The notes beneath the pieces are model-generated. The model searched no databases, was not told the origin of the DNA, and worked only from the letters and a program-made list of their open reading frames with translations. Source: Ruegeria atlantica (GTDB lineage Bacteria > Pseudomonadota > Alphaproteobacteria > Rhodobacterales > Rhodobacteraceae). From it: a stretch of 64,000 nucleotides of DNA. Positions 45,078 to 60,217 of this stretch are shown piece after piece. Location: positions 62,001-126,000 of the forward strand of contig NZ_WQFE01000003.1 of the NCBI RefSeq assembly GCF_013033965.1, given 5' to 3'. Within the stretch, counting starts at the first letter, position 1. Every line of letters begins with the position of its first letter. The translations under genes and the position numbers were made by a program.

Positions 45078-45133
45078 AAATCAGATTGTGGCAAGCTGAG
45101 GTCACAACGAACATATCTACAGGGAGTAGAGTG

Positions 45134-46468
45134 ATGGCACAGGGCCAGATTGCCCCCGGCATTGTCTCCGGGCGGCTGTCCAGCGATGAGCTGACCTCGA
45201 ATTTCACGGATCTGCATCCGCCACTGGCCTCTCATGAGGCCGCTGTGGCAGCGGATCGGTGCTATTTTTGTTACGACGCGCCATGCGTCACAGCCTGTCC
45301 GACAGACATCGACATTCCGCTGTTCATGCGCCAAATCCAGGCCGGTCAGCCCGAAGCTGCGGGTGAAACCATTCTGGCGCAGAACATTCTGGGTGGAATG
45401 TGCGCCCGTGTTTGTCCCACCGAGACATTGTGCGAAGAGGCCTGTGTGCGCGAAACCGCCGAAGGTCAACCGGTTGAGATCGGTCGCTTGCAGCGCTACG
45501 CAACAGACAGTGTCATGGTTGGTGGCGATCATCCGTTTGAGCGGTCTGCACCCACGGGTAAAACCGTTGCTGTGATCGGGGCGGGGCCTGCCGGCCTGGC
45601 CTGTGCGCACAGATTGGCGATGCTGGGCCATGACGTTGTGATCCACGAAAGTCGCCCCAAGCCCGGCGGGCTGAACGAATACGGGATCGCCGCGTACAAA
45701 TCGACGAACGATTTTGCGCAGGCCGAGGTCGATTGGCTACTGAAAATCGGTGGCATCTCTATTGAGACCGGATCAGTTTTGGGTGAAGGTATCTCGCTTG
45801 AAGGTCTGGTCGAGAGTTACGATGCTGTATTCCTGTCCATCGGTCTGGCCGGGGTGAACGCCCTGCGCTCGCAAGGGGCGGACCTGGACGGCGTCCGCCA
45901 CGCGGTCGATTTCATCTCGGACGTTCGGCAAGCCTCTGACCTGTCGAACCTGCCGGTCGGTCGCAATGTTGTGGTGATTGGCGGCGGCATGACTGCCGTG
46001 GATGCTGCGGTGAAGTCGAAATTGCTGGGCGCCGAACATGTCACCATCGCTTACCGCCGTGGCCGTGATGCAATGGGTGCCAGCCGGTACGAGCAAGACC
46101 TAGCGTCTTCGCATGGCGTCAAGATCATGACCAACGTGCAGCCCGTGGCCGTGCATGGAAACGGGGCAGCGGTAGAGATCGAACTGGAGTACACGTCCAG
46201 CCACGACGGGCAGCTTTCGGGCACCGGAGAGATGATCCGCGTCCCAGCTGATCAGGTCCTAAAGGCGATCGGTCAAAAGCTGGATGGCGCCCCCGAGGCG
46301 CTGAAGCTGGACGGCAACAAGATCGCCGTGACCGGGGCCGGGCGCACATCGATGGATGGTGTCTGGGCCGGAGGCGACTGTGCAGCGGGTGGCGAAGACC
46401 TGACCGTGACCGCAGTGGCCGAGGGCCGGGATGCGGCGATGGACATCCACGCAACGCTCGTTTCGTGA
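45134..46468 (+). CDS. preT: Dihydropyrimidine dehydrogenase, NAD-linked FAD/Fe-S subunit
   Basis: PreT passes electrons from NAD(P)H to PreA for the reduction of uracil and thymine, the first step of reductive pyrimidine breakdown. The 444-residue protein starts with a GltD-like Fe-S domain (Cys43, 46, 51 and 55 in DRCYFCYDAPCVTACP, then GGMCARVCPTETLCEEAC), followed by the FAD motif VIGAGPAGLACAHR and the NAD motif VIGGGMTAVDAA. The end VWAGGDCAAGGEDL closes the FAD site. The ATG at 45,134 follows AGGGAG. A methyltransferase gene separates it from preA. Confidence 0.95.
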   Translation: MAQGQIAPGIVSGRLSSDELTSNFTDLHPPLASHEAAVAADRCYFCYDAPCVTACPTDIDIPLFMRQIQAGQPEAAGETILAQNILGGMCARVCPTETLCEEACVRETAEGQPVEIGRLQRYATDSVMVGGDHPFERSAPTGKTVAVIGAGPAGLACAHRLAMLGHDVVIHESRPKPGGLNEYGIAAYKSTNDFAQAEVDWLLKIGGISIETGSVLGEGISLEGLVESYDAVFLSIGLAGVNALRSQGADLDGVRHAVDFISDVRQASDLSNLPVGRNVVVIGGGMTAVDAAVKSKLLGAEHVTIAYRRGRDAMGASRYEQDLASSHGVKIMTNVQPVAVHGNGAAVEIELEYTSSHDGQLSGTGEMIRVPADQVLKAIGQKLDGAPEALKLDGNKIAVTGAGRTSMDGVWAGGDCAAGGEDLTVTAVAEGRDAAMDIHATLVS

Positions 46469-46514
46469 TAGGATGGGGCATTCACCCCATCCCATTCGCT
46501 GCTGAGGTATCCTC

Positions 46515-47351
46515 ATGTCCCAGATCGAACAAGCTGTTGCGCAACACTATACAACTGGTGCTCTTACGGAACGCATGCGTGAGGCGCTCAAAGCCAGTGG
46601 CATTGATCCAAATGCGGCGACAGTTGCCGACCTCAAGGCAGGTGATGAGTTCCATACCGGCGGTGTTCTTGCGACGGACAACCTGTTTGCCCAGCTTTCG
46701 CCGACCCACGCGACCCGTGTGCTGGATGTCGGCAGCGGCATTGGTGGGACGTCGCGGTACATCGTGGATCGTTATGACTCGACAGTCACCGGGGTCGACC
46801 TGACGCCTGAATTTGTCGAAACGGCTACTGCTTTAAGTGAACTTGTCGGGCATTCCGAAAAGACGAGTTTTCTGGTTGGCAGCGCACTGGACATGCCTGT
46901 TCCGGATGCAGGCTTCGATCTTGCCGTCATGATGCATGTTGGGATGAACATCGAAAACAAGGCTGGCCTTTTCGCGGAAGTCTCGCGCGCGCTGGCCTGG
47001 GATGGGACCTTTGCCCTGTTTGATGTGATGGGTGGGGAAATTGCCGAGCCACTGGCCTATCCTTTGCCATGGTCAACTGTTGCCGAGACATCCTTTGTCG
47101 ATGCGCCAGAGGTTTACAAAGAAGCCGCCGCTGCGGCGGGCCTCGAATTGGTCTCTGAGACAGACCGGACCGAATTCGCGCTTACCTTTTTCGAAGAGGT
47201 GTTTGCGCGCATCGCCGAAAGCGGCCCGCCGCCCTTGGGCATCCACCTGATGATGGGCGAGACGGCGCCTGAAAAGTTCCAAAACTACGTCACGAACCTG
47301 AAGGCCGGGCGCATTCGTCCGACCGAAATGATATTCAAGAAAACCGGCTGA
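46515..47351 (+). CDS. Class I SAM-dependent methyltransferase (between preT and preA)
   Basis: A 278-residue methyltransferase with SAM motifs VLDVGSGIGGTSRYI (about 76-90), VTGVDLTPEFVETA and VMMHVGMNIENKAGLFAEVSRAL. It resembles UbiE/sarcosine-type small-molecule methylases. It sits 46 bp after preT and 18 bp before preA, on the same strand, so it is part of the pyrimidine operon. A substrate among pyrimidines or their products, such as a methylated base, is only a guess. Confidence 0.85.
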   Translation: MSQIEQAVAQHYTTGALTERMREALKASGIDPNAATVADLKAGDEFHTGGVLATDNLFAQLSPTHATRVLDVGSGIGGTSRYIVDRYDSTVTGVDLTPEFVETATALSELVGHSEKTSFLVGSALDMPVPDAGFDLAVMMHVGMNIENKAGLFAEVSRALAWDGTFALFDVMGGEIAEPLAYPLPWSTVAETSFVDAPEVYKEAAAAAGLELVSETDRTEFALTFFEEVFARIAESGPPPLGIHLMMGETAPEKFQNYVTNLKAGRIRPTEMIFKKTG

Positions 47352-47369
47352 GCCGGGAAGGGAGAAGCC

Positions 47370-48674
47370 ATGGCCGATCTGACAACAAACTTTCTGGGTA
47401 TTTCCAGCCCCAATCCTTACTGGCTTGCCTCGGCACCACCGACGGACAAGGAATACAACGTCCGCCGCGCGTTCGAGGCCGGGTGGGGCGGCGTAGTCTG
47501 GAAAACGCTGGGGTCCGAGGGGCCGCCGGTCGTAAACGTGAACGGGCCGCGCTACGGCGCGATCTATGGCGCGGACCGGCGGTTGTTGGGGCTGAACAAC
47601 ATCGAGCTGATCACAGACCGGCCGCTTGAAGTGAACCTGGAAGAAATGGCGCGGGTCAAAGCCGACTATCCGGATCGCGCGCTGATCGCTTCGATCATGG
47701 TGCCGTGTGAGGAAGAGGCGTGGAAAGCCATCCTGCCGCGCGTCGAAGAAACCGGTGCAGACGGGATCGAACTGAACTTTGGCTGCCCGCACGGGATGAG
47801 CGAACGCGGCATGGGATCTGCCGTGGGGCAGGTGCCGGAGTATATCGAGATGGTGACCCGCTGGTGCAAGCAGTATTATGGCCGCCCGGTTATCGTGAAG
47901 CTGACGCCGAACATCACCGATATCCGCAAGCCCGCCGAGGCGGCGCGAAACGGTGGTGCGGATGCGGTCTCGCTGATCAATACGATCAACTCGATCACCA
48001 GCGTCAATCTGGACACGTTCAGCCCCGAGCCTTCGATTGACGGCAAAGGCAGCCACGGTGGTTATTGCGGCCCGGCTGTTAAGCCGATCGCTCTGTCCAT
48101 GGTATCCGAGATTTCGCGTGCGGAAGCGACGCATGGTCTGCCGATTTCAGGTATCGGTGGCGTGACCACATGGCGTGATGCGGCAGAGTTCATGGCGCTG
48201 GGATGTGGGACCGTTCAGGTCTGCACCGCGGCAATGACCTATGGGTTCAAGATCATTGATGAGCTGACTGCCGGTCTGTCCAAGTGGATGGACGAAAAAG
48301 GCTACAAAGACGTCTCGGAAATCGTTGGTCTGGCTGTTCCCAACGTTACGGACTGGCAGTATCTGAACCTGAACTATGTGGCCAAGGCCAAGATCGATCA
48401 GGACCAGTGCATCAAATGCGGGCGCTGCTATGCCGCGTGCGAAGATACCAGCCACCAGGCGATTTCCATGTCCGACGATCGCGTTTTTGAAGTCATGGAC
48501 GACGAATGCGTCGCCTGTAACTTGTGCGTGGATGTCTGCCCGGTCGACGGCTGCATCTCGATGGTGCCTATGGCTGCCGGAGAGGTAGATCCGCGCACCG
48601 GACGGGAAGTTCAGCCGGAATATGCGAACTGGACGACCCATCCAAACAACCCGATGGCGAAAGCGGCCGAGTAA
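47370..48674 (+). CDS. preA: Dihydropyrimidine dehydrogenase, catalytic FMN/Fe-S subunit
   Basis: PreA reduces uracil and thymine to dihydropyrimidines. The 434-residue protein has a dihydroorotate dehydrogenase-like FMN barrel (ISSPNPYWLASAPPTDKEYNV at the start, ELNFGCPHGMSERGMGSAVG with the active-site Cys, IGGVTTWRDA), then a two-cluster ferredoxin domain (CIKCGRCYAACE and CVACNLCVDVCPVDGC). GGGAAGGGAG precedes the ATG. It closes the preT operon, and a strong terminator follows. Confidence 0.96.
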   Translation: MADLTTNFLGISSPNPYWLASAPPTDKEYNVRRAFEAGWGGVVWKTLGSEGPPVVNVNGPRYGAIYGADRRLLGLNNIELITDRPLEVNLEEMARVKADYPDRALIASIMVPCEEEAWKAILPRVEETGADGIELNFGCPHGMSERGMGSAVGQVPEYIEMVTRWCKQYYGRPVIVKLTPNITDIRKPAEAARNGGADAVSLINTINSITSVNLDTFSPEPSIDGKGSHGGYCGPAVKPIALSMVSEISRAEATHGLPISGIGGVTTWRDAAEFMALGCGTVQVCTAAMTYGFKIIDELTAGLSKWMDEKGYKDVSEIVGLAVPNVTDWQYLNLNYVAKAKIDQDQCIKCGRCYAACEDTSHQAISMSDDRVFEVMDDECVACNLCVDVCPVDGCISMVPMAAGEVDPRTGREVQPEYANWTTHPNNPMAKAAE

Positions 48675-48793: not shown

Positions 48794-50053
48794 CTAGATC
48801 AAATAGGTGGACAAGATCGGCGCATAGCTGAGCAGAATTAACACGGCTGCCACGGCAATCAGGAAAGGCCAAAGCGATTTCAGGATCGCTCCGGGTGTCG
48901 TGCCGCTCATGGATGAGGCGATATAGAGGCCAATTCCTACAGGTGGCGTCAGCAGGCCAAGAACCAGGTTCAGGCAGGCGACCACGCCGAATTGATAGGG
49001 GCTGATGTCGTAGGACCCAATTGCAATCGGCAACAAAATGGGTGTGATCAGAATGATAGCCGCGATCCCGTCGATCACCATCCCCACCAACAGCAAGGCG
49101 GCATTTACGATCAGCAGAAATATGAACGGATCGGATGTGATGGATGTGATCAACCCCGCCAACTGCTGAGGTATCTCCTCGTAGATAATGACCCAGCCAA
49201 ATACGCTGGCCGCGGCGATCATGAACAGGATCATCGACGCATTTGCGGCTGTTCGCTTGAACATCTCGCCCAGATTCTGCGGCTTCAGATCTCCGTAAAT
49301 CAGCCACCCGACCAGAAATGCGATTAGCGAGGCGATGGCGGCGGATTCCGTTGGTGTTGCAATGCCGAACAGAATGCCGCCGATGATCGAAACCGGGATC
49401 AGCATGGCGGGCAGCGCGGCGATCAAGGCTTGTACGGCGTCTTTTCGGGACATCCAGACACCCTTGGGGAATTGCTGAACCCAACCAATTAACGTGATTA
49501 CCAGCGCAAATGCGCCAGCCATAAGAAGTCCAGGAATGATCCCGGCAATAAACATGTCGCCGATAGGAATCTGAGCCAGAACGCCAAAGATGACAAACAT
49601 CATCGACGGTGGAATGACCGGGGCCAATAGGCCCCCGGCCGCTGTCGTGGCGGCAGCGAAGCCCTTGCTATAGCCCTCTTCCTCCATCGCGGGGACCATC
49701 GCGCGGGACATCACAGCGATCTGTGCGGTGGCCGAGCCGATGATGGCAGCCATGAACATATTCGCCAGCAGGTTGATATAGGCCAGCCCACCCCGAAACC
49801 CGCCCACGAACACGCGTGCCAAAGCGACCAGACGGCGCGTCATGCCGCCTTCATTCATCAATTCTCCGGTCAGCATGAACAGTGGGATGGCCAACAGGCC
49901 GTAGTTTTCCAGTCCGCCAAACATCTTCTGGGCGAAACTGTCATAGAGAACCGTGTTCCCGCTTTCCCAGATGTACCAGATTGCCGTTATCGCCAGCACG
50001 ATGGCGACGGGCACCGACAGCAGCAGGGTGGCCAGAAAGACAATCGGGCTCAT
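48794..50053 (-). CDS. TRAP transporter large membrane subunit (DctM type)
   Basis: A 419-residue permease with about 12 helices, the ion-coupled transport channel of a TRAP system (SPIVFLATLLLSVPVAIVLAI, FMLTGELMNEGGMTRRLVALA, AAGGLLAPVIPPSMMFVIF, LVGMVIDGIAAIILITPILLPI, GLLTPPVGIGLYIASS). Its ATG overlaps the small-subunit stop by 4 bp. With the small subunit and solute-binding protein it forms a sodium-driven importer for an organic acid. Because the dioxygenase gene is directly upstream of the operon, an aromatic or amino-aromatic acid is a likely substrate. Confidence 0.93.
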   Translation of the reverse strand: MSPIVFLATLLLSVPVAIVLAITAIWYIWESGNTVLYDSFAQKMFGGLENYGLLAIPLFMLTGELMNEGGMTRRLVALARVFVGGFRGGLAYINLLANMFMAAIIGSATAQIAVMSRAMVPAMEEEGYSKGFAAATTAAGGLLAPVIPPSMMFVIFGVLAQIPIGDMFIAGIIPGLLMAGAFALVITLIGWVQQFPKGVWMSRKDAVQALIAALPAMLIPVSIIGGILFGIATPTESAAIASLIAFLVGWLIYGDLKPQNLGEMFKRTAANASMILFMIAAASVFGWVIIYEEIPQQLAGLITSITSDPFIFLLIVNAALLLVGMVIDGIAAIILITPILLPIAIGSYDISPYQFGVVACLNLVLGLLTPPVGIGLYIASSMSGTTPGAILKSLWPFLIAVAAVLILLSYAPILSTYLI

Positions 50054-50583
50054 GCGGGTGACCCTCGTCCGGGACGCGTCAGAAGATGCATCGTGGAGTG
50101 CAGAGTGGCCCCCAAGGCAAATAGCCACATCACGAGCCAAAACAGAAACTTTGGCAGCCCAAGAGTCGAAGTCGGCTCGGCATAGATGAAGTTGAACGTA
50201 TTGCCCTGAAACTCCATGGCATCGAACCCGGCACGGGCGATGTCCAATGGCAGAAACCAGCGCCAGCAGAACCACAGCATCGCGACGGCAAAAATGAAGA
50301 CAACAATGTCGACCGCCTTCTGGATGATTGCCCGGGCCTTAGAAGGAACCACATCAACAAGGATCGTGATCGAGACTGAGTTTCGGTGATGCAGCGCGGC
50401 GGACGCACCAAGGAATGTCATCCACACCATCGCATAGATCGCCAGCTCATCCACCCAGAACAGCGCGTTACCAGCGGTGCGGGTGACGACATTCAGCAAG
50501 ATCAGCAAGGTGACGCAAACCGCAAGTGCTGCGGCACACCACAATTCAACCCGCGCCCAAGTAGCTGACAGCCGGTACAACAT
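50050..50583 (-). CDS. TRAP transporter small membrane subunit (DctQ type)
   Basis: A 177-residue four-helix protein typical of DctQ: LWCAAALAVCVTLLILLNVVTR, FWVDELAIYAMVWMTFLGASAALHHR with the conserved Asp-Glu pair, VVFIFAVAMLWFCW and a final helix. It begins at the ATG 50,583; a few residues upstream are not conserved. It is coupled to the large subunit by an ATGA overlap. A hairpin lies between it and the upstream binding-protein gene. Confidence 0.9.
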   Translation of the reverse strand: MLYRLSATWARVELWCAAALAVCVTLLILLNVVTRTAGNALFWVDELAIYAMVWMTFLGASAALHHRNSVSITILVDVVPSKARAIIQKAVDIVVFIFAVAMLWFCWRWFLPLDIARAGFDAMEFQGNTFNFIYAEPTSTLGLPKFLFWLVMWLFALGATLHSTMHLLTRPGRGSPA

Positions 50584-50600
50584 CCCCGATCCCCTATGCA

Positions 50601-50629
50601 AAAGGGCGCAGGATCGACCCGCGCCCTTT
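50601..50629 (-). terminator. Partial terminator/attenuator between the TRAP binding protein and permease genes
   Basis: On the minus strand AAAGGGCGC and GCGCCCTTT form a 9-bp stem around an 11-base loop, 17 bp past the binding-protein stop. It probably makes the binding protein more abundant than the permeases. Confidence 0.65.
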
Positions 50630-50646
50630 CCCTGAAACGTTCAACT

Positions 50647-52243
<1,597 letters not shown>

Positions 52244-52256
52244 TTATCCGCATCTA

Positions 52257-52277
52257 GATATCCGATTTGCTTATATC
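52257..52277. promoter_or_regulatory. LysR-type operator before nbaC
   Basis: GATAT-N11-ATATC, a perfect T-N11-A palindrome, centred 78 bp upstream of the nbaC start. The same motif occurs at two other promoters of the block. Confidence 0.7.
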
Positions 52278-52284
52278 GATGCGG

Positions 52285-53238
52285 TTAGGGCTTTAAGCCG
52301 CATTCCTCGAACCCTTTGCGAATGATCTCTTTTTCCGCATCCGTTAGTTCCAGCATGGGCGCGCGCACGCGCCCTCCGGTCTGACCCAGAAGCTCTTGCC
52401 AGTACTTGCCAAACGCGGTGGGTTTGTCCGCAGGTTTGGTCCGCTTCATCGCGTCGCGCACCGGGTTCAGGCTGTCAAACACCCTGCGCGCCTCGTCCGC
52501 TTTGCCCGCAAAAGCCAGTCGCGTGTATTCGTTCATGCGCTGATCGTTCTTGGTCTGGATCTGATAGGGTGGCGACGAACACAGGTACAGTTTCCAGTCC
52601 AGTTCCAGAATATTGTCCAACCATTCATGTTCGGCCGAGGTCGAGACATGGATTCTGTCGCCCACCATATGGGTCAGTTTCACGTACATCTCGCGCGGGA
52701 CAGAGTATTTGATGGCCACGATGTTCGGCAGATCGGCAATCCGAGCACATTCCTCGGGCTGCATCAGGTAACCGCTGTCCGGGTGGCTCCACATCGCAAT
52801 CCCGATATCGAGCTCATCGCAGAACCGTTTGTAGTACTGGTACAAAACCTCCCCACGATCCTGAACAAAGCTAAGAACAGGGGCGTGCAGGACGATGTAA
52901 TCGGCCCCGCAATTTTGCGCATGTCGTGCCAGTTCCAGCGCCGTGTCCATGTTCTGGTCCGAGACCGAGACGATCACACCGGCCTTGCCCGCGCATTCAT
53001 CGACCGCAATTTCAAAGTTGCGCTTGCGCTCATCAAGGCTCATCGAAAAAAACTCGCCCTGTTTCCCCGCCACGAACAGGCCCTGAATATCCAGATCGTC
53101 GATCCAGTGACGAATGTTTGACCTCAGGCCTGCCTCATCCAGTGACAAATCATCGTTGAACGGGTTCAGGGCCGCCGCCCAGATTCCGGTCATGTGCTCG
53201 CGCGCATAGGCTTTTGCATCGTGTTTAGAGTAATTCAT
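52285..53238 (-). CDS. DapA-family aldolase/lyase with atypical active site
   Basis: A 317-residue (beta/alpha)8 protein of the dihydrodipicolinate synthase/N-acetylneuraminate lyase family. The Schiff-base lysine is Lys177 in VAIKYSVP. The usual GTTGE pyruvate loop reads GKQGE (58-62), and the usual tyrosine near 120 is replaced in HAPVLS. So it probably does not use pyruvate in the ordinary way. It may be a hydratase-aldolase or decarboxylase in the 3-hydroxyanthranilate-linked pathway. It is divergent from the aspartate dehydrogenase-like gene with a GATAT palindrome between them; its stop lies 95 bp upstream of the nbaC start on the same strand. Confidence 0.85.
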   Translation of the reverse strand: MNYSKHDAKAYAREHMTGIWAAALNPFNDDLSLDEAGLRSNIRHWIDDLDIQGLFVAGKQGEFFSMSLDERKRNFEIAVDECAGKAGVIVSVSDQNMDTALELARHAQNCGADYIVLHAPVLSFVQDRGEVLYQYYKRFCDELDIGIAMWSHPDSGYLMQPEECARIADLPNIVAIKYSVPREMYVKLTHMVGDRIHVSTSAEHEWLDNILELDWKLYLCSSPPYQIQTKNDQRMNEYTRLAFAGKADEARRVFDSLNPVRDAMKRTKPADKPTAFGKYWQELLGQTGGRVRAPMLELTDAEKEIIRKGFEECGLKP

Positions 53239-53313
53239 ATCAGGCGGACCTTTTAGTTATCATGCTAAGAAAGCCCGATCATATCGTCTGATCCAATGCG
53301 AAAGCTGGGAATT

Positions 53314-53336
53314 GGATATCAGAAATTAGAATATCC
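53314..53336. promoter_or_regulatory. LysR-type operator between the aldolase and aspartate dehydrogenase-like genes
   Basis: GGATAT-N11-ATATCC, a perfect palindrome, centred 59 bp before the dehydrogenase-like start and 87 bp before the aldolase start. An extra ATATC follows at 53342-53346. Confidence 0.75.
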
Positions 53337-53383
53337 ATAGAATATCAATTTAGGAATCTTTGGCGCTGGGTTAAGTTTGCCGC

Positions 53384-54157
53384 ATGAAGATTGGATTGAT
53401 TGGAAAAGGCGCGATCGCGCAGCATGTCTTGGATGCCATTCAGGCGCGAGGGCATCAGGTTCATGCGGTTCTGGTTCGCGCAAGCAGCGTTTCGCAGGAT
53501 CCGGATTTATTTGTGGGTTCTGTAAAAGATCTCACTTCCAGAGCAAATCTGGTGATCGACTGCGCGGGCCATCAGGCGTTGGCGGAGTACGGTCCTCAGG
53601 TTTTGTCCCGTGGCATTGATATGATCACTGTATCCATTGGCGCATTGGCGGATCGGCAAGTCGCGGATGCGTTGGAAGCCTCTGCTCGCGGCTCGGGGGC
53701 CAAGCTGTATCTGGCCAGTGGCGCCATCGGGGCGCTGGATTGTCTTGGTGCAGCTGCGACCGGCAAGTTGGACAAGGTTATCTATGTCGGGCGCAAGTCA
53801 CCGCAAGGCTGGAAGGGTTCAATGGCTGAGGACAAGTTAGACCTCGAAAATCTCATCAAGGCGGAAGCGCATTTCAATGGCACCGCTCGTGAGGCCGCGT
53901 TGAATTACCCCAAAAACGCAAACGTGGCGGCGGCAGTCGCTTTGGCTGGGTTAGGATTCGACGACACACAGGTTCAACTGATCGCGGACCCTTCAGCCAC
54001 CGGCAACACTCACGAGATCGAGGCCCAAGGCGAATTCGGGCGGTTTCATTTCCAGATCAGCGGGAAGTCCCTGCCGGACAATCCACGTAGTTCTGCCCTG
54101 GCGGCCATGAGCGTGGTGGCCAAGGTCGAACAGCTTCTGGACCCAATTGTGATCTGA
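53384..54157 (+). CDS. Aspartate dehydrogenase-like NAD(P) enzyme
   Basis: A 257-residue protein of the L-aspartate dehydrogenase (DUF108/NadX) family: Rossmann start MKIGLIGKGAIAQHVLDAI, then YPKNANVAAAVALAGLGFDDTQVQLIADP and the catalytic His210 in SATGNTHEIEA. The end SLPDNPRSSALAAMSVVAKVEQLL is family-typical. Family enzymes interconvert aspartate and iminoaspartate/oxaloacetate and can feed quinolinate. Here it may act on an amino or imino product of the ring-cleavage path. It is followed by the LysR gene after 2 bp, forming one operon. Confidence 0.88.
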   Translation: MKIGLIGKGAIAQHVLDAIQARGHQVHAVLVRASSVSQDPDLFVGSVKDLTSRANLVIDCAGHQALAEYGPQVLSRGIDMITVSIGALADRQVADALEASARGSGAKLYLASGAIGALDCLGAAATGKLDKVIYVGRKSPQGWKGSMAEDKLDLENLIKAEAHFNGTAREAALNYPKNANVAAAVALAGLGFDDTQVQLIADPSATGNTHEIEAQGEFGRFHFQISGKSLPDNPRSSALAAMSVVAKVEQLLDPIVI

Positions 54158-54159
54158 CC

Positions 54160-55104
54160 ATGGTGGGACGTCACTCACGCATCGTCGATCGCGCCCTGAC
54201 CCGGTTGAAACTGCGCCAACTGCGCCTGCTGGTTGCGGTGGGTGCGCATGGCAACATCCAGAACGCAGCACGTGAACTAGGCATTTCACAACCCGCAGCA
54301 ACCAAGATGATTCAGGATCTTGAACTGGATTTTGAGGTCAAGCTGTTTAGCCGAACCAATCGAGGCGTGATCCCGACTGTGTTTGGAGAAACCCTGATCC
54401 GTCATGGCAAACTGATCTTTGCGCAGGTCTCGAACGCCGCGCAGGAACTGGACGACCTGAACGAAGGAAATGCAGGCCGCGTTGTGGTAGGCACTTTGCT
54501 GGCAGCGTCGACCAGCCTTCTGCCAACGGCTATTGAAATCCTGCTCGCTGACCGTCCGAACGTGGCCATCAAGATTAATGAAGGCACGAACGAAGTCCTG
54601 ATGCCACGGTTGCTTTCGGGCGAGATCGATATGGTGGTCGGGCGCCTGCCATCCCATCGGCATCGCGACAAGATCAGGCAGGAAAAGCTGTTTGAGGACC
54701 GCATACTGGCGATTGTCGGCAATCAGCACCCCTTGGCCGAACGTCAGAACATCTCATTCGCGCAAACCAAACCTTTTGGCTGGATTGTGCCACCGCTTGA
54801 AACCACGCTGAGGCGTCAGCTTGACCATTTCTTTGTTGGCCAGCAGCAATACGTCCCGCCCGTGATGATCGAATCCGTATCCTACCTGACCAACCGGGCC
54901 CTTCTGCAGTCGCGCGATCTGATCGGGCTTATGCCGGCCGAGGTCGTTTCGCAGGACATTGCCCACGGCTACTTGTCGCCGCTGGATTGGGACGTCCCAT
55001 TTGGGCAGGGGCCGATTGGTGTCTCGTTCCGGGCGGATGCCGATCTTTCCCCAGCGGGTCGGGCCTTCAAGGCAGCGCTGCATCAGGCGGTGAAACAGAA
55101 ATGA
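54160..55104 (+). CDS. LysR-family regulator of the aromatic block
   Basis: A 314-residue LysR regulator: N-terminal winged helix (LKLRQLRLLVAVGAHGNIQNAARELGISQPAATKMIQDLE, about 16-55) and a type 2 periplasmic-binding-like effector domain (about 90-305). Its gene starts 2 bp after the dehydrogenase-like gene. Three T-N11-A palindromes at the block promoters are likely its sites, so it is taken as the shared regulator. The inducer is unknown but may be 3-hydroxyanthranilate or a product. Confidence 0.92.
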   Translation: MVGRHSRIVDRALTRLKLRQLRLLVAVGAHGNIQNAARELGISQPAATKMIQDLELDFEVKLFSRTNRGVIPTVFGETLIRHGKLIFAQVSNAAQELDDLNEGNAGRVVVGTLLAASTSLLPTAIEILLADRPNVAIKINEGTNEVLMPRLLSGEIDMVVGRLPSHRHRDKIRQEKLFEDRILAIVGNQHPLAERQNISFAQTKPFGWIVPPLETTLRRQLDHFFVGQQQYVPPVMIESVSYLTNRALLQSRDLIGLMPAEVVSQDIAHGYLSPLDWDVPFGQGPIGVSFRADADLSPAGRAFKAALHQAVKQK

Positions 55105-55109
55105 AGTCA

Positions 55110-55130
55110 GGTATTCGCCAAATTGATATC
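55110..55130. promoter_or_regulatory. LysR-type operator before the aldehyde dehydrogenase gene
   Basis: GGTAT-N11-ATATC, one mismatch from GATAT-N11-ATATC, centred 88 bp before the start codon. It shares its right half with the two perfect copies upstream. Confidence 0.6.
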
Positions 55131-55207
55131 AGTATTCCCCCAATTCACTTGAAGTAATGCCAGCCATTGCGTGATTTGAAATGGTCAAAATCGGAGGCGT
55201 CGGTTTC

Positions 55208-56638
55208 ATGTATCCTGAGCTTAAGCTGTTCATCGCTGGAAAATGGCGGACAACAAGCCGGGATATTCCCGTTGTGAACCCGGCAACAGAAGAGGAAATC
55301 GGACGCCTTCCTTGCGCGTCGATGCAGGATTTGGACGACGCACTGGAAGCGGCTGTCAAAGGGTTCCGTGTATGGAGAAGCACCTCACCGCGCGAACGTT
55401 CTGACACTATCCTCCGGGCCGCCGCGCTGATGCGCGAACGTCAGGAAGTAATCGCCCATGCCATCACACTGGAACACGGTAAACCTTTGAAACAGGCTCG
55501 GCTCGAAGTGATCAGGGGGGCCGAGTTCTTTGAGTGGGACGCGGGCGAGGCGATGCGGACTTATGGGCGGGTCATCCCTGCGGCTCCGGGCCACAAGTTC
55601 TCCGTTCAACACCAGCCTATCGGTGTCGTCGCGGCCTTCTCACCCTGGAACTTCCCGATGAGTCAGCCAGCGCGCAAAATCGCTGGGGCGCTGGCCTCGG
55701 GCTGCTCGATCATCCTGAAAGCGGCGGAAGAAACACCCGCAGGCGCAATACATATTGCAAAAGCCTTTGAGGATGCCGGTCTTCCTGCGGGCGTTTTGAA
55801 CCTGGTGTTCGGGAAGCCGGCAGAAATCTCAGGCCATCTCATTCCGCAGGAGCCGGTCAGGCTAGTGGCTTTCACCGGTTCAACCGCTGTGGGGCGGCAT
55901 CTGACCACCTTGGCCTCGGAACACATGACATCGGTTCTGATGGAACTGGGCGGCCACGCCCCTGTCATTGTCTGCGAAGATACAGATGTGCAAACGGCGG
56001 GGGTCTCTAGCGCCGTTCGAAAAATGCGCAACGCCGGGCAGGTCTGCACATCGCCCACAAGGTTCTTTGCGCATGAGAGCATCTTTGAAGATTATGCGAC
56101 AACTTTCGTTGAACGCGCTGCGGCAACTGTTGTCGGAAACGGTATGGACCCAAATGTCGAAATGGGTCCTCTGGCCAATAACCGCCGGGTGCCTGCGCTG
56201 ACCGAATTGGTGGAAGACGCCCGTGAAAAGGGCGCGGAGGTTGCCACGGGCGGGGCCAAACATGGTGATAAAGGGTTTTTCTTTCAGCCCACTGTCTTGC
56301 TGAACGTGCCCGACAACGCCCGGATCATGCAGGAGGAACCCTTTGGTCCGGTCGCTGTGATCAATCCCGTGTCCTCGCTGGATGACGCAATCGGTAAAGC
56401 AAACTCGGTGCCCTATGGGCTGGCTGGCTATGCGTTTACAAATCGTGCGGACTACATCGACCGGTTGATCGATGAGGTTGAGGTTGGCAACCTGTCGATC
56501 AACACGCTGGAGGCATCCATGCCGGAAACCCCCTTTGGTGGAGTGAAATCAAGTGGTTACGGTCGCGAAGGCGGTACCGAGGGGCTGGACAATTACATGA
56601 TCGTCAAAAACGTATGGCATTCAGCGAAAATTAGTTGA
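55208..56638 (+). CDS. NAD-dependent aldehyde dehydrogenase (semialdehyde type)
   Basis: A 476-residue aldehyde dehydrogenase: Asn148 in FSPWNFP, catalytic Glu246 in LMELGGHAP, nucleophile Cys280 in GQVCTSPTRF, and the NAD loop FTGSTAVGRHL. It resembles succinate-semialdehyde dehydrogenases, but 2-aminomuconate-semialdehyde-type activity is equally possible in this context. The ATG at 55,208 follows GGAGG at 9 bp; an upstream in-frame ATG lies before that site. It is a single gene under its own LysR-type palindrome. Confidence 0.9.
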   Translation: MYPELKLFIAGKWRTTSRDIPVVNPATEEEIGRLPCASMQDLDDALEAAVKGFRVWRSTSPRERSDTILRAAALMRERQEVIAHAITLEHGKPLKQARLEVIRGAEFFEWDAGEAMRTYGRVIPAAPGHKFSVQHQPIGVVAAFSPWNFPMSQPARKIAGALASGCSIILKAAEETPAGAIHIAKAFEDAGLPAGVLNLVFGKPAEISGHLIPQEPVRLVAFTGSTAVGRHLTTLASEHMTSVLMELGGHAPVIVCEDTDVQTAGVSSAVRKMRNAGQVCTSPTRFFAHESIFEDYATTFVERAAATVVGNGMDPNVEMGPLANNRRVPALTELVEDAREKGAEVATGGAKHGDKGFFFQPTVLLNVPDNARIMQEEPFGPVAVINPVSSLDDAIGKANSVPYGLAGYAFTNRADYIDRLIDEVEVGNLSINTLEASMPETPFGGVKSSGYGREGGTEGLDNYMIVKNVWHSAKIS

Positions 56639-56657: not shown

Positions 56658-57266
56658 CTATGGCGTCAAAAGTTTCCGGTAGAGGGTGTCGATAAACGGC
56701 TCGGCCCCCTCAAAGGGGTCCTCGTCGCCTAGGATCGCGCGAACCTGAACGTCAAAATCCGCGTAGTGCTGGGTCAGCGCCCAGATTGAGAAAATCAGGT
56801 GATGGGGATGCAGGCGCGCGATTTTACCCTCGTCCATCCATTGCGTGAGTATTGCCGTTTTTTCATCCACCAGTGTTTTAAGGTCGTTCGACAACGACGC
56901 GTGAATGCGCGGTGCGCCCTGAACCAGCTCGTTCGCGAACAAGCGGCTTTCGCGGGGTAAATCCCGGCTCATTTCCAGCTTGCGACGGATATAGGCGAGG
57001 ATTTCCTCCATCGGATCCCCATCCGCATCCAGATCATGCAGAGGCGCCAGCCACGTCTCGAGCAGGCCCGACAGCAGGGCGGTGTGGATCGCCTCTTTCG
57101 ACGGGAAGTAATACAGCAGGTTCGGCTTGCTCAGCCCAGCCTCGGTCGCGATCTGATCTACAGTCGCACCTCGGAAACCATGCGCCGAGAACACATTCAG
57201 TGCGGCTTCGAGAATCGCGGCGCGGTTCTTTTTCTGAATTCGGGTTGGGGCGCGGTCTTTGGGCAT
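56658..57266 (-). CDS. RutR-like TetR-family regulator
   Basis: A 202-residue TetR regulator. The N-terminal helix-turn-helix is about 15-60 (ILEAALNVFSAHGFRGATVDQIATEAGLSKPNLLYYFPSKEAIH). The C-terminal part (ANELVQGAPRIHASLSNDLKTLVDEKTAILTQWMDEGKIA, HLIFSIWALTQHYADF) matches the RutR/YcdC ligand domain, which binds uracil and thymine. It faces the hydrolase gene across 171 bp containing a perfect RutR-type palindrome. It is likely the repressor of the pyrimidine genes and of itself. Confidence 0.92.
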   Translation of the reverse strand: MPKDRAPTRIQKKNRAAILEAALNVFSAHGFRGATVDQIATEAGLSKPNLLYYFPSKEAIHTALLSGLLETWLAPLHDLDADGDPMEEILAYIRRKLEMSRDLPRESRLFANELVQGAPRIHASLSNDLKTLVDEKTAILTQWMDEGKIARLHPHHLIFSIWALTQHYADFDVQVRAILGDEDPFEGAEPFIDTLYRKLLTP

Positions 57267-57371
57267 GTTTCCTGACTGTCTCTTTTTCCGTCAAGCGAGG
57301 GCGATCTAAGCCGTTTTTTGCAGCGGCACCATGCAATTTCTTGACTGATGTCGAACCCGTGATAGCGTGAG

Positions 57372-57389
57372 TTTGACCAGATGGTCAAA
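57372..57389. promoter_or_regulatory. RutR-type operator
   Basis: TTTGACCAGATGGTCAAA is an 18-bp perfect palindrome (except the central two bases) and matches the E. coli RutR consensus TTGACCA-N2-TGGTCAA exactly. It is centred 57 bp upstream of the hydrolase start. Confidence 0.88.
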
Positions 57390-57437
57390 TCAAGACACCA
57401 AAAGCGAGCCAAATCGCAAGCAACAGGGAAGAACAAG

Positions 57438-58688
57438 ATGGCAGCTCCGGCGCAAAACCTCAGGATCAATGGCGACAGACTTTGGGACAGCCTGATGGAG
57501 ATGGCCAAGATCGGCCCCGGCGTTGCGGGCGGCAACAACCGCCAGACCCTAACGGATGAGGATGCGGAAGGGCGCGCCTTGTTCCAGAGCTGGTGTGAGG
57601 ATGCGGGCTGCACCATGGGGTTGGACCAGATGGGCAACATGTTTGCCCGCCGCGAAGGGACCGATCCCGAAGCGCTTCCGGTCTATGTCGGCTCGCACCT
57701 GGATACGCAACCAACCGGCGGCAAGTATGACGGCGTGCTCGGCGTGCTTGGTGGGCTTGAGATCATCCGCACTCTCAACGATCTGGGGATTAAGACGAGA
57801 CACCCGATCGTGGCGACCAACTGGACCAATGAAGAGGGCACCCGATACGCTCCGGCGATGCTGTCCTCGGGCGTGTTTGCTGGAATGCACACTCAGGATT
57901 GGGCTTATGATCGCGAGGATGCCGAGGGCAAGAAGTTCGGTGACGAACTGAGCCGCATCGGCTGGCGTGGTGATGAAGAGGTCGGTGCCCGCAAAATGCA
58001 CGCTTTCTTCGAGTTGCATATCGAACAGGGGCCAATCCTTGAGGCCGAGGGCAAGGATATCGGCGTCGTCACGCACGGGCAGGGGCTGAGTTGGACTCAG
58101 GTCACTGTGACCGGCAAGGACGCTCATACCGGCTCGACTCCGATGCCAATGCGCAAGAATGCCGGGCTGGCGATGGCGCGCATTCTGGAGAAGGTAGACG
58201 AGATAGCGTGGTCCCACGCACCTCACGCTGTTGGCGCAGCTGGGCATATCGATGTTTACCCAAACTCTCGTAACGTGATCCCCGGCAAGGCTGTGTTCAC
58301 GGTTGATTTCCGCTCGCCCGAACTGGACGTCATCACTGATATGGAAAACCGTCTGCGCGTGGCGGCAGAAGATATCGTCGATGAGATGGGCCTGCAGATC
58401 GAATTTGAAAAGGTTGGCGGGTTTGATCCGGTGAAGTTTGACCAAGGCTGCGTTGCAGCGGTTCGCGATGCGGCAGAGCGGCTGGGATACTCGCACACCA
58501 ATATCATCTCGGGCGCAGGGCATGATGCCTGCTGGATCAACCGTGTCGCGCCGACCGCGATGGTCATGTGTCCGTGTGTCGACGGATTGAGCCACAACGA
58601 AGCCGAAGAGATCAGCAAGGAATGGGCCGCAGCAGGTGCGGATGTCTTGCTTCACGCCGTCGTCGAAACCGCAGAAATCGTTGAATAA
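57438..58688 (+). CDS. N-carbamoyl-beta-alanine/allantoate-type amidohydrolase (M20 family)
   Basis: A 416-residue zinc hydrolase. Metal ligands His87 (VGSHLDTQPTGG), Asp98 (KYDGVLG) and Glu132 (TNEEGTRY) follow the HyuC/AllC/PydC pattern. In this operon it should cut N-carbamoyl-beta-alanine to beta-alanine, CO2 and ammonia, the last step of reductive pyrimidine breakdown. The ATG at 57,438 follows AGGGAAGAA; an earlier ATG in the operator is unlikely. The dihydropyrimidinase gene follows 74 bp on. Confidence 0.93.
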   Translation: MAAPAQNLRINGDRLWDSLMEMAKIGPGVAGGNNRQTLTDEDAEGRALFQSWCEDAGCTMGLDQMGNMFARREGTDPEALPVYVGSHLDTQPTGGKYDGVLGVLGGLEIIRTLNDLGIKTRHPIVATNWTNEEGTRYAPAMLSSGVFAGMHTQDWAYDREDAEGKKFGDELSRIGWRGDEEVGARKMHAFFELHIEQGPILEAEGKDIGVVTHGQGLSWTQVTVTGKDAHTGSTPMPMRKNAGLAMARILEKVDEIAWSHAPHAVGAAGHIDVYPNSRNVIPGKAVFTVDFRSPELDVITDMENRLRVAAEDIVDEMGLQIEFEKVGGFDPVKFDQGCVAAVRDAAERLGYSHTNIISGAGHDACWINRVAPTAMVMCPCVDGLSHNEAEEISKEWAAAGADVLLHAVVETAEIVE

Positions 58689-58762
58689 AAGGGAATCGGC
58701 CTGACCGCCGGGTTCTCACGTCAAAACAACATGAGGCGCAAAGCGCCCGCAGGGAGAAGAAC

Positions 58763-60217
58763 ATGTCTACTGTGATCAAGAACGGAACTGTCGTTACCGC
58801 CGATCTGTCCTACAAAGCAGATGTCAAAGTCGAGGACGGCATTATCACTGAAATCGGTCTGGGTTTGAAGGGCGACAAGGAATTGGATGCCACAGGCTGC
58901 TACGTCATGCCCGGCGGGATTGACCCGCATACACATCTTGAGATGCCCTTTATGGGTACCTATTCCAGTGACGATTTCGAAAGCGGAACACGAGCTGCTT
59001 TGGCGGGCGGCACCACGATGGTCGTCGATTTCGCGCTGCCAAACCCCGGCGAAAGTCTGTTAGACGCGCTGAAGCGCTGGGACAACAAATCCACCCGCGC
59101 GAACTGTGACTATTCCTTCCATATGGCCGTGACCTGGTGGGGGGAGCAGGTGTTCGATGACATCAAGACGGTGATCGAGACGCGCGGCATCAACACGTTC
59201 AAGCACTTCATGGCCTACAAAGGCGCGTTGATGGTGAATGATGACGAGCTGTTCGCCTCGTTCAAGCGCCTATCCGAACTGGGCGGTATTGCGATGGTCC
59301 ATGCCGAGAACGGCGATGTGGTGGCGGAACTCAGTGCCAAGCTACTTGCTGAGGGGAACAACGGCCCCGAGGCGCATGCCTATTCCCGCCCGCCGCAGGT
59401 TGAGGGCGAGGCGACAAACCGCGCCATCATGATCGCCGATATGGCAGGGGTGCCACTTTATGTGGTGCATACGTCCTGTGAGGATGCGCATGAGGCGATC
59501 CGGCGGGCCAAATTGCAGGGCAAGCGGGTCTGGGGTGAACCTCTGATCCAACACCTGACGTTGGATGAGAGCGAATACTTCAACCAGGATTGGGATCATG
59601 CGGCACGTCGGGTCATGAGCCCTCCGTTCCGGAACAAGCAACATCAGGACAGTCTGTGGAATGGCCTGCAATCGGGATCGCTGAGTGTTGTGGCCACGGA
59701 TCACTGCGCCTTTACGACGGAACAGAAACGGTATGGAGTAGGCGACTTTACCAAGATCCCCAACGGCACCGGCGGACTTGAAGACCGGATGCCCATGCTG
59801 TGGACACATGGCGTAAACACCGGACGGTTGACGCCGAACGAATTTGTGGCAGTGACTTCAACTAACATCGCTAAGATTTTGAATTGCTATCCGAAAAAAG
59901 GAGCCGTTCTTATCGGCGCTGATGCGGATTTGGTGGTTTGGGATCCCGAAAAGAGCAAGACGATCAGCTCTGATACACAGCAATCCTCGATCGACTACAA
60001 CGTGTTCGAGGGCAAAGAGGTCAAAGGCCTGCCGCGCTTTACCCTGTCGCGGGGACAGGTGGCCGTGCATGACGGCGAAATTCGCACGCAGGAAGGTCAC
60101 GGTGACTTTGTGGCGCGTGAGGCCAATACAACCGTGAACAAGGCGCTGAGCACCTGGAAAGAGCTGACCGCGCCGCGGCCGGTTGAAAGGTCGGGCATCC
60201 CGGCGACGGGCGTATGA
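58763..60217 (+). CDS. hydA: Dihydropyrimidinase
   Basis: Opens the ring of dihydrouracil or dihydrothymine to the N-carbamoyl-beta-amino acid. The 484-residue amidohydrolase has the zinc site HTHLEMPF (His56, His58), the carboxylated Lys153 in FKHFMAYKGA, later metal histidines in VHAENGD and VVHTSCEDAHE, and the metal Asp in VATDHCAFT. Length and the end region are typical of D-hydantoinase/dihydropyrimidinase. It is in the same direction as the hydrolase. Confidence 0.97.
   Translation: MSTVIKNGTVVTADLSYKADVKVEDGIITEIGLGLKGDKELDATGCYVMPGGIDPHTHLEMPFMGTYSSDDFESGTRAALAGGTTMVVDFALPNPGESLLDALKRWDNKSTRANCDYSFHMAVTWWGEQVFDDIKTVIETRGINTFKHFMAYKGALMVNDDELFASFKRLSELGGIAMVHAENGDVVAELSAKLLAEGNNGPEAHAYSRPPQVEGEATNRAIMIADMAGVPLYVVHTSCEDAHEAIRRAKLQGKRVWGEPLIQHLTLDESEYFNQDWDHAARRVMSPPFRNKQHQDSLWNGLQSGSLSVVATDHCAFTTEQKRYGVGDFTKIPNGTGGLEDRMPMLWTHGVNTGRLTPNEFVAVTSTNIAKILNCYPKKGAVLIGADADLVVWDPEKSKTISSDTQQSSIDYNVFEGKEVKGLPRFTLSRGQVAVHDGEIRTQEGHGDFVAREANTTVNKALSTWKELTAPRPVERSGIPATGV

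Follow-up and report, generated by a model that had tools for sequence, protein, structure and literature searches.

The 64-kb piece of the 4.67-Mb genome of Ruegeria atlantica analysed here (contig NZ_WQFE01000003.1; hereafter the window, to which all positions refer) carries, at 48794–56638, a block of genes that is, in our opinion, probably a regulated module for the uptake and catabolism of 3-hydroxyanthranilate (3HAA), bypassing the decarboxylase of 2-amino-3-carboxymuconate 6-semialdehyde (ACMS). On the minus strand, the block runs from a dapA-like gene through the gene of 3-hydroxyanthranilate 3,4-dioxygenase (HAO) to those of a TRAP transporter (DctP, DctQ, DctM); divergent from these, on the plus strand, are the genes of an aspartate dehydrogenase (AspDH), a LysR regulator, and an aldehyde dehydrogenase (ALDH). 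The gene positions given in a first-pass annotation of the window, made from the sequence alone, are correct. Comparison with other genomes confirms the gene block as a genuine module, conserved more than chance would allow.

Conservation of the Gene Set

The first line of evidence is co-occurrence, which was assessed in 198 genomes of the family, drawn from 197 genera, and in 398 genomes of the phylum; the two draws overlap, at least in the module genomes G000, G055, and G075 (G and L numbers denote genomes and loci), and are not fully independent. A DapA-like protein at least 62% identical to that of the window is present in 20 of the 198 family genomes, a 28% match in G153 being taken as another family, and HAO scores above its cut-off in the identical 20 genomes. 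The HAO and dapA-like genes lie on different contigs in three of these (G073, G038, and G031). Below the cut-off, a partial HAO match (126 bits) was found in G128, which has no DapA-like protein, and 31 more genomes gave only weaker cupin-type matches. AspDH is above its cut-off in 37 family genomes, namely in all 20 module genomes and in 17 of the 178 others (Fisher 1.2e-17, uncorrected for kinship); the module genomes in which it lies outside the module neighbourhood include G062, G092, G138, and G162. None of the three proteins is found in G043, another genome of the same genus. In the phylum sample, where DapA-like proteins were counted at E ≤ 1e-40, these occur in 10 genomes and HAO in 25. 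All ten genomes with a DapA-like protein have HAO, together with AspDH above cut-off, and none of the 15 HAO genomes without it has AspDH above cut-off (one, G406, has a match below it, at 151.8 bits).

The second line of evidence is physical linkage. Of the 106 loci compared (six from plasmids, 20 from family genomes, and 80 from genome contigs), 103 were kept after two duplicates and a relative with 27% identity had been dropped, and 81 of these are flanked by 5 kb or more on either side. Within 9 kb, these 81 loci contain HAO in 68 cases, AspDH in 71, a LysR regulator (two types searched) in 67, a TRAP transporter in 36, kynureninase in 23, and a branched-chain-type ABC transporter in 11. 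Thus, homologues of the genes do not occur apart in most genomes, the outcome that the first-pass annotation had named as speaking against its reading, whether one considers genomes or loci. Its proposal of amino-aromatic acid uptake, followed by a route for the ring-cleavage product that it could match to no described one, is supported by this co-occurrence and linkage of HAO, DapA-like protein, and AspDH.

A Shared Operator and a PcaQ-like Regulator

The block is also held together by its promoters. Alignment of 53 intergenic regions between dapA-like and aspDH genes, including that of the window, yields a core, G.TAT...ATA.C at 90% conservation or more, that has the form of a LysR-type dyad (T-N11-A). 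The pattern GRTAT-N11-ATAYC, fixed after this alignment and the ALDH promoter had been viewed, has exactly three matches in the 64 kb, against 0.06 expected and three matches in none of 100 shuffles. All are exact, and each falls in one of the block's promoter regions: GATAT-N11-ATATC at 53315–53335, between the diverging genes of the aldolase-like protein and AspDH (the alignment-conserved core), GGTAT-N11-ATATC upstream of ALDH (55110–55130), and GATAT-N11-ATATC upstream of HAO (52257–52277). The last of these came out of the pattern search, having gone unnoticed although its sequence had already been displayed. The shared operators suggested in the first-pass annotation are therefore real.

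In 105 loci, which total 1.93 Mb and include two duplicates, the pattern matches 110 times, in 102 cases no more than 400 bp upstream of a module gene. Within 300 bp upstream, strict matches were found for 35 of 81 ALDH, 36 of 83 AspDH, 38 of 103 dapA-like, and 22 of 85 HAO genes, compared with 1.5% of random 310-bp stretches. They are few upstream of DctP (2 of 40), of kynureninase (0 of 28), and of the molybdenum-subunit genes described below (3 of 18); given this unevenness among gene types, the exact site is a feature of part of the family. The pattern was rejected as a genome-wide regulon marker: with 30 sites in the genome of the window, compared with 5 for a reversed control, it does not delimit a regulon by itself, and only its clustering was used.

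The LysR protein (54160–55104, plus strand) finds its best NCBIfam model in PcaQ (TIGR02424), the LysR activator of protocatechuate genes, at 205 bits and thus under the cut-off of 303.8; its target genes also differ from those of PcaQ. Since carboxymuconate, the inducer of PcaQ, closely resembles ACMS in structure, ACMS would be a fitting ligand for a PcaQ-like regulator. The regulator probably senses ACMS or 3HAA at the three GRTAT-N11-ATAYC sites.

Probable Ring Opening Without the Usual Decarboxylase

HAO (51647–52189, minus strand) exceeds both 3HAA equivalog cut-offs of NCBIfam (NF009763, 282.8 bits vs. 220; TIGR03037, 279.3 vs. 145.95). All ten residues checked are retained (R46, H50, E56, H94, R98, E109, C124, C127, C161, and C164); with positions taken from 1yfu, they represent the iron ligands, the arginines, and two C-x2-C pairs. 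The first-pass statement that the dioxygenase has all known catalytic residues is borne out in these ten. The family assignment is strong, and the product would be ACMS. A second HAO group, 53–63% identical to the enzyme of the window (74–98% in the first group), was observed in loci L023, L034–L036, L042, L089, L095, L098, L099, L110, and L123; both groups pair with one DapA-like family.

Four proteins found beside HAO in DapA-negative genomes are amidohydrolases of PF04909, the family that includes ACMS decarboxylase (ACMSD). PF04909 proteins from HAO loci were used as ACMSD-like queries, a name based on family and on their location next to HAO; NCBIfam, against which two of the four candidates were compared, gave no matching model. 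Within the 14 kb taken, an ACMSD-like gene is present in 7 of 15 DapA-negative HAO loci and in none of 110 DapA-like loci (two of them duplicates). Of the other eight DapA-negative loci, six have kynureninase, L217 has a DmpG-type aldolase, and L222 falls in no group. In the genome of the window, one query protein gave no ACMSD candidate at E ≤ 1e-20, as anticipated by the first-pass annotation, in which the usual semialdehyde decarboxylase was reported absent. Matches at the same threshold in 36 of the 198 family genomes, with at most 37% identity among the matches listed, were rejected as other amidohydrolases; three of these genomes (G092, G139, and G162) carry the DapA-like protein.

The canonical meta-cleavage of 3HAA proceeds through HAO, ACMSD, and 2-aminomuconate-semialdehyde dehydrogenase (AMSDH) and, according to an excerpt of PMC10143591, is common to 2-nitrobenzoate degradation and the kynurenine pathway. 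The block shares with it the first step, the HAO family, and the use of an aldehyde dehydrogenase after ring opening. It differs in having no ACMSD-like gene, in having a DapA-like enzyme and AspDH instead, and in the ALDH, which comes from another branch and lacks Arg464.

As to the source of 3HAA, the genome contains tryptophan dioxygenase and kynureninase, but no clear kynurenine monooxygenase: the best match to a presumed query from L219, whose own best NCBIfam model is VioC, below cut-off, has 27% identity (E 6e-12). Synthesis of 3HAA from tryptophan inside the cell was rejected for this reason, and 3HAA may therefore come from outside via the TRAP transporter. The genes of the latter, all on the minus strand, encode the large permease DctM (48794–50053, start near 50053; TIGR00786, 366.7 bits vs. 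a cut-off of 268.45; PF06808), the small permease DctQ (50050–50601, start codon uncertain; PF04290, 8e-22), and the solute-binding protein DctP (50647–51621, start at 51621 and signal-peptide-like; NF037995, 160 bits vs. 50). Kynureninase was discarded as a module marker, being above cut-off in 160 of the 198 family genomes.

An Atypical DapA-Superfamily Protein

The product of the dapA-like gene (52285–53238, minus strand; PF00701, 2e-32; model pLDDT 90.2) has both the TIM barrel and the Schiff-base lysine of the DapA/NAL class-I aldolase superfamily, the lysine being K177, which aligns with that of NAL and DHDPS. It is neither DHDPS nor NAL proper. The G-[ST]-T-G-E motif is absent, GKQGE standing where GSTGE or GTTGE is usual, the TPYY/TPFYY site lacks its tyrosine, and the dapA and nanA models give 80.4 bits (cut-off 206.15) and 76.9 bits (cut-off 382). 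The best NCBIfam model is KdgD (96.8 bits; cut-off 373.95). These features agree with the first-pass description of an aldolase-family protein with changed pyruvate-site residues.

The hydratase-aldolases NahE and PhdJ, which act on trans-o-hydroxybenzylidenepyruvate, belong to the DapA superfamily too, and their substrate is likewise an aromatic ring-cleavage product. K183, the corresponding lysine of NahE, aligns with K177, and NahE also lacks the NAL/DHDPS tyrosine. NahE releases pyruvate, whereas the protein described here is proposed to yield a C4 imino diacid. NahE was not among the matches listed in structure searches with the DapA-like protein.

Relatives of the protein are widespread: one genome scan gave 538 stretches at a tblastn E ≤ 1e-3. 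The closest named loci, from Ruegeria atlantica, encode proteins 97–98% identical to it. Matches were found in 53 plasmid records, 23 of them from Phaeobacter, with at least 60% identity in 47; the plasmid genes are mostly annotated as "dihydrodipicolinate synthase family protein" and in some records carry no annotation. On pP11_c of P. gallaeciensis, the module is accompanied by kynureninase and a second transporter. A DapA-family relative of 27–28% identity (L021/L046; G153:C20:46088-47050) has no other module genes within 20 kb and represents a different group. Two Woeseiaceae metagenome bins have two dapA-like contigs each (L080 and L088; L078 and L097), perhaps paralogues or mixed strains.

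Aspartate Dehydrogenase

AspDH (53384–54157, plus strand) passes three NCBIfam models, namely NF009828 (335.3 bits vs. 177), the equivalog NF009827 (234 vs. 226), and NF009829 (186.2 vs. 184), and falls short of the cut-offs set for five others of AspDH. It matches 2dc1 at 1.3e-33 and has the N-x-H motif of the AspDH C-terminal domain, N208 and H210 being conserved in at least 97% of 86 aligned homologues. The first-pass annotation had called the protein aspartate dehydrogenase-like; the family was right, and with three models passed the "-like" was too cautious. Family and motif are common to this protein and L-aspartate dehydrogenase (NadX/AspDH; 2dc1, 1j5p). The two differ in that the gene of the block is genetically tied to ring cleavage, and NadX/AspDH to synthesis of NAD.

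Two Alternating Aldehyde-Oxidising Enzymes

The third line of evidence concerns the oxidation of an aldehyde. The ALDH of the block is of NAD type (55208–56638, plus strand; PF00171, 3e-154), its start being most likely 55208 instead of 55181, and the closest PDB sequences are 9zh8 and 5x5t. Against the hydroxymuconic semialdehyde dehydrogenase model TIGR03216 it scores 289.6 bits, with a cut-off of 693.25, which the ALDH of the ACMSD locus L228 passes with 761.1. In AMSDH, the portion of PMC4286809 consulted has Arg120 and Arg464 hold 2-aminomuconate semialdehyde; in our alignment, the equivalent of Arg120 is present and Arg464 is missing. Thus, to judge from its residues and scores, the ALDH seems to be unlike the AMSDH of the usual route.

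Within 9 kb, ALDH (at least 60% identity) is present in 59 of the 81 well-flanked loci, and a molybdenum-cofactor subunit of the aldehyde-oxidase/xanthine-dehydrogenase family in 18; none has both, and four have neither (Fisher 1.6e-14, uncorrected for relatedness). In all 18 loci (L024:9719-12004, L025:9725-12004, and 16 more), the molybdenum gene immediately precedes the dapA-like gene in the same orientation, with a match gap of at most 57 bp. One such protein was run on the models, and its best family was the alpha subunit of glyceraldehyde dehydrogenase, an enzyme of a C3 aldehyde (605 bits, cut-off 790). As for the loci with neither gene, the ALDH of L023 lies about 10.3 kb away, past the 9-kb limit, and that of L061 is in broken pieces; L047, related and of Phaeobacter type, ends before the corresponding place, and L064, a metagenome bin, has no ALDH. 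Because two unrelated aldehyde-oxidising enzymes substitute for each other, an aldehyde may be set free or oxidised in the route; this swap is its strongest hint.

Proposed Route

These observations suggest the following scheme. The TRAP transporter would import 3HAA or a near relative, and HAO would open its ring to give ACMS. The DapA-like enzyme, with Lys177 as Schiff base, might then add water at C4 of ACMS and cleave the C3–C4 bond, yielding a C4 product, iminosuccinate (C1, C2, C3, and the 3-carboxyl) or oxaloacetate plus ammonia, and a C3 product, malondialdehyde (C4–C6). AspDH would reduce iminosuccinate to L-aspartate. ALDH, or in other genomes the molybdenum aldehyde oxidase, could convert malondialdehyde to malonate semialdehyde, from which methylmalonate/malonate-semialdehyde dehydrogenase would form acetyl-CoA. 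The order may also be reversed, with ALDH acting first to give aminocarboxymuconate, which would then be cleaved to iminosuccinate and malonate semialdehyde.

The carbon arithmetic is consistent with such a cleavage, as the seven carbons of ACMS equal the four of the AspDH substrate plus three of an aldehyde. Only HAO is more tightly linked than AspDH, whose substrate matches the proposed iminosuccinate fragment. Two genes for methylmalonate/malonate-semialdehyde dehydrogenase score above cut-off in the genome; β-alanine, a product of the pyrimidine pathway, also leads to malonate semialdehyde. On balance, and by a modest degree of belief, we favour a third fate for ACMS by enzyme action, namely hydration followed by a retro-aldol split in which no CO2 is lost. 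Through this activity, which would be new to the DapA superfamily, the nitrogen would be kept as aspartate and a C3 aldehyde would be formed, and NAD-dependent and molybdenum enzymes would be interchangeable at the aldehyde step.

Several observations weigh against this scheme. AspDH above cut-off also occurs in the 17 of 178 family genomes without the module. HAO is absent within 9 kb from 13 of the 81 loci; it is found elsewhere in the genome for L031, L032, L037, and L047 and at the locus end in L023, the remaining eight having been searched within 9 kb only. AspDH is lacking nearby in 10 of the 81; eight of these genomes carry it elsewhere, and G590 and G592 do not. A recheck of six well-flanked AspDH-less loci found it absent at the locus and present elsewhere in 4 of the 6 genomes. 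The DapA-like protein is distant from every characterised aldolase, its best PDB match being 1.3e-20, and it shares only 20% identity with NahE (275 columns, profile alignment probability 96%). The nearest named-function PDB sequences of the ALDH are alpha-ketoglutarate- and succinate-semialdehyde dehydrogenases, with no malondialdehyde enzyme among them, and no FeS/FAD partner gene lies beside the molybdenum subunit in two annotated loci (PLSDB gene tables being incomplete). Finally, all the reactions are inferred from sequence, foremost those after HAO together with the order of cleavage and oxidation; the reductive direction of AspDH is assumed, and hydration by the DapA-like protein is postulated.

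Alternative Explanations

The DapA superfamily includes dehydratase-decarboxylases, and the best model of the DapA-like protein, at the sub-threshold 96.8 bits, is KdgD; ACMSD-like genes are missing where the protein occurs. It might, accordingly, be an unrelated ACMS decarboxylase/deaminase that replaces ACMSD, with ALDH as the AMSDH and the AspDH-like enzyme reducing or deaminating 2-aminomuconate. We regard this as improbable, since the ALDH reaches only 289.6 bits against the cut-off of 693.25 that the ALDH of L228 exceeds (761.1), and has no Arg464, though the Arg120 equivalent is there (AMSDH residues from the portion of PMC4286809 consulted). Moreover, that route needs no AspDH, which is above cut-off in 0 of the 15 HAO genomes lacking the DapA-like protein. 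A published scheme of NAD synthesis, seen in a legend of PMC3833962, includes both HAO and AspDH, and 6 of the 15 DapA-negative HAO loci have kynureninase with neither ACMSD-like nor DapA-like genes (L218, L219, L220, L226, L229, and L230; L229 also has ALDH). HAO could thus serve NAD synthesis, ACMS closing spontaneously to quinolinate and AspDH giving iminoaspartate, with the other genes mere neighbours. However, this would leave TRAP uptake, the aldehyde-oxidising gene, the DapA-like protein, and the three shared operators unexplained, and, unlike a NAD pathway, the set is patchily distributed (in 20 of 198 genomes) and also occurs on plasmids (in 47 records with at least 60% identity). It is, in our opinion, very unlikely.

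It is also conceivable that the natural substrate is a substituted 3HAA or another ortho-aminophenol carboxylate of marine secondary metabolism, which would undergo the same bond cleavages to other products. The genome has no clear kynurenine monooxygenase, so that 3HAA is not evidently made inside, and the transporter varies among loci between TRAP and ABC types. Yet HAO is clearly above both 3HAA equivalog cut-offs and kynureninase accompanies 23 of the 81 loci; we give this substrate only a small chance, comparable to that of a substitute decarboxylase.

Genomic Surroundings

The block is surrounded by a cluster for reductive pyrimidine degradation (45086–48674 and 56658–60217), which includes a PreT-like protein, PreA (722.5 bits vs. 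335), dihydropyrimidinase (598.6 vs. 393.25), a Zn-dependent amidohydrolase, and a RutR-like TetR regulator scoring under its cut-offs. This setting recurs in only 3 of the 106 other loci compared (L048–L050), and the block is therefore an independent unit. By eye, the reading frame at 46515–47351, between the PreT-like gene and PreA, resembles a SAM-dependent methyltransferase. Recent acquisition was considered and dropped, there being no signal in GC content (0.562 for the block, 0.570 for the window, 0.552–0.588 across 7.8-kb windows).

Novelty and Significance

In the part of PMC10143591 available to us, ACMS is either decarboxylated by ACMSD or closes to quinolinate; an excerpt of PMC4539516 describes a deaminase route for 4-amino-3-hydroxybenzoate. 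Among the matches listed from the open-licence literature, titles and abstract openings revealed no degradation pathway combining HAO with a DapA-family enzyme or with AspDH. Joint mentions of "3-hydroxyanthranilate" and "aspartate dehydrogenase", as far as the matched text extends, are the NAD-synthesis legend in PMC3833962 and a mouse-liver protein table, neither being a degradation pathway. The block thus probably represents a new form of 3HAA catabolism with, probably, a new enzyme activity, a verdict that a subscription paper, which may exist, could alter.

ACMS is a branch point between synthesis of an NAD precursor, formation of the neuroactive quinolinate, and degradation, and an enzyme that removes it would also serve as a tool for the control of quinolinate. 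If true, the scheme would add a meta-cleavage pathway that yields an amino acid and malonate semialdehyde. A decarboxylase-free route would say what a common "dihydrodipicolinate synthase family protein" does and explain why roseobacters keep AspDH beside the dioxygenase. It would also show how marine bacteria could return tryptophan-derived nitrogen directly to aspartate.

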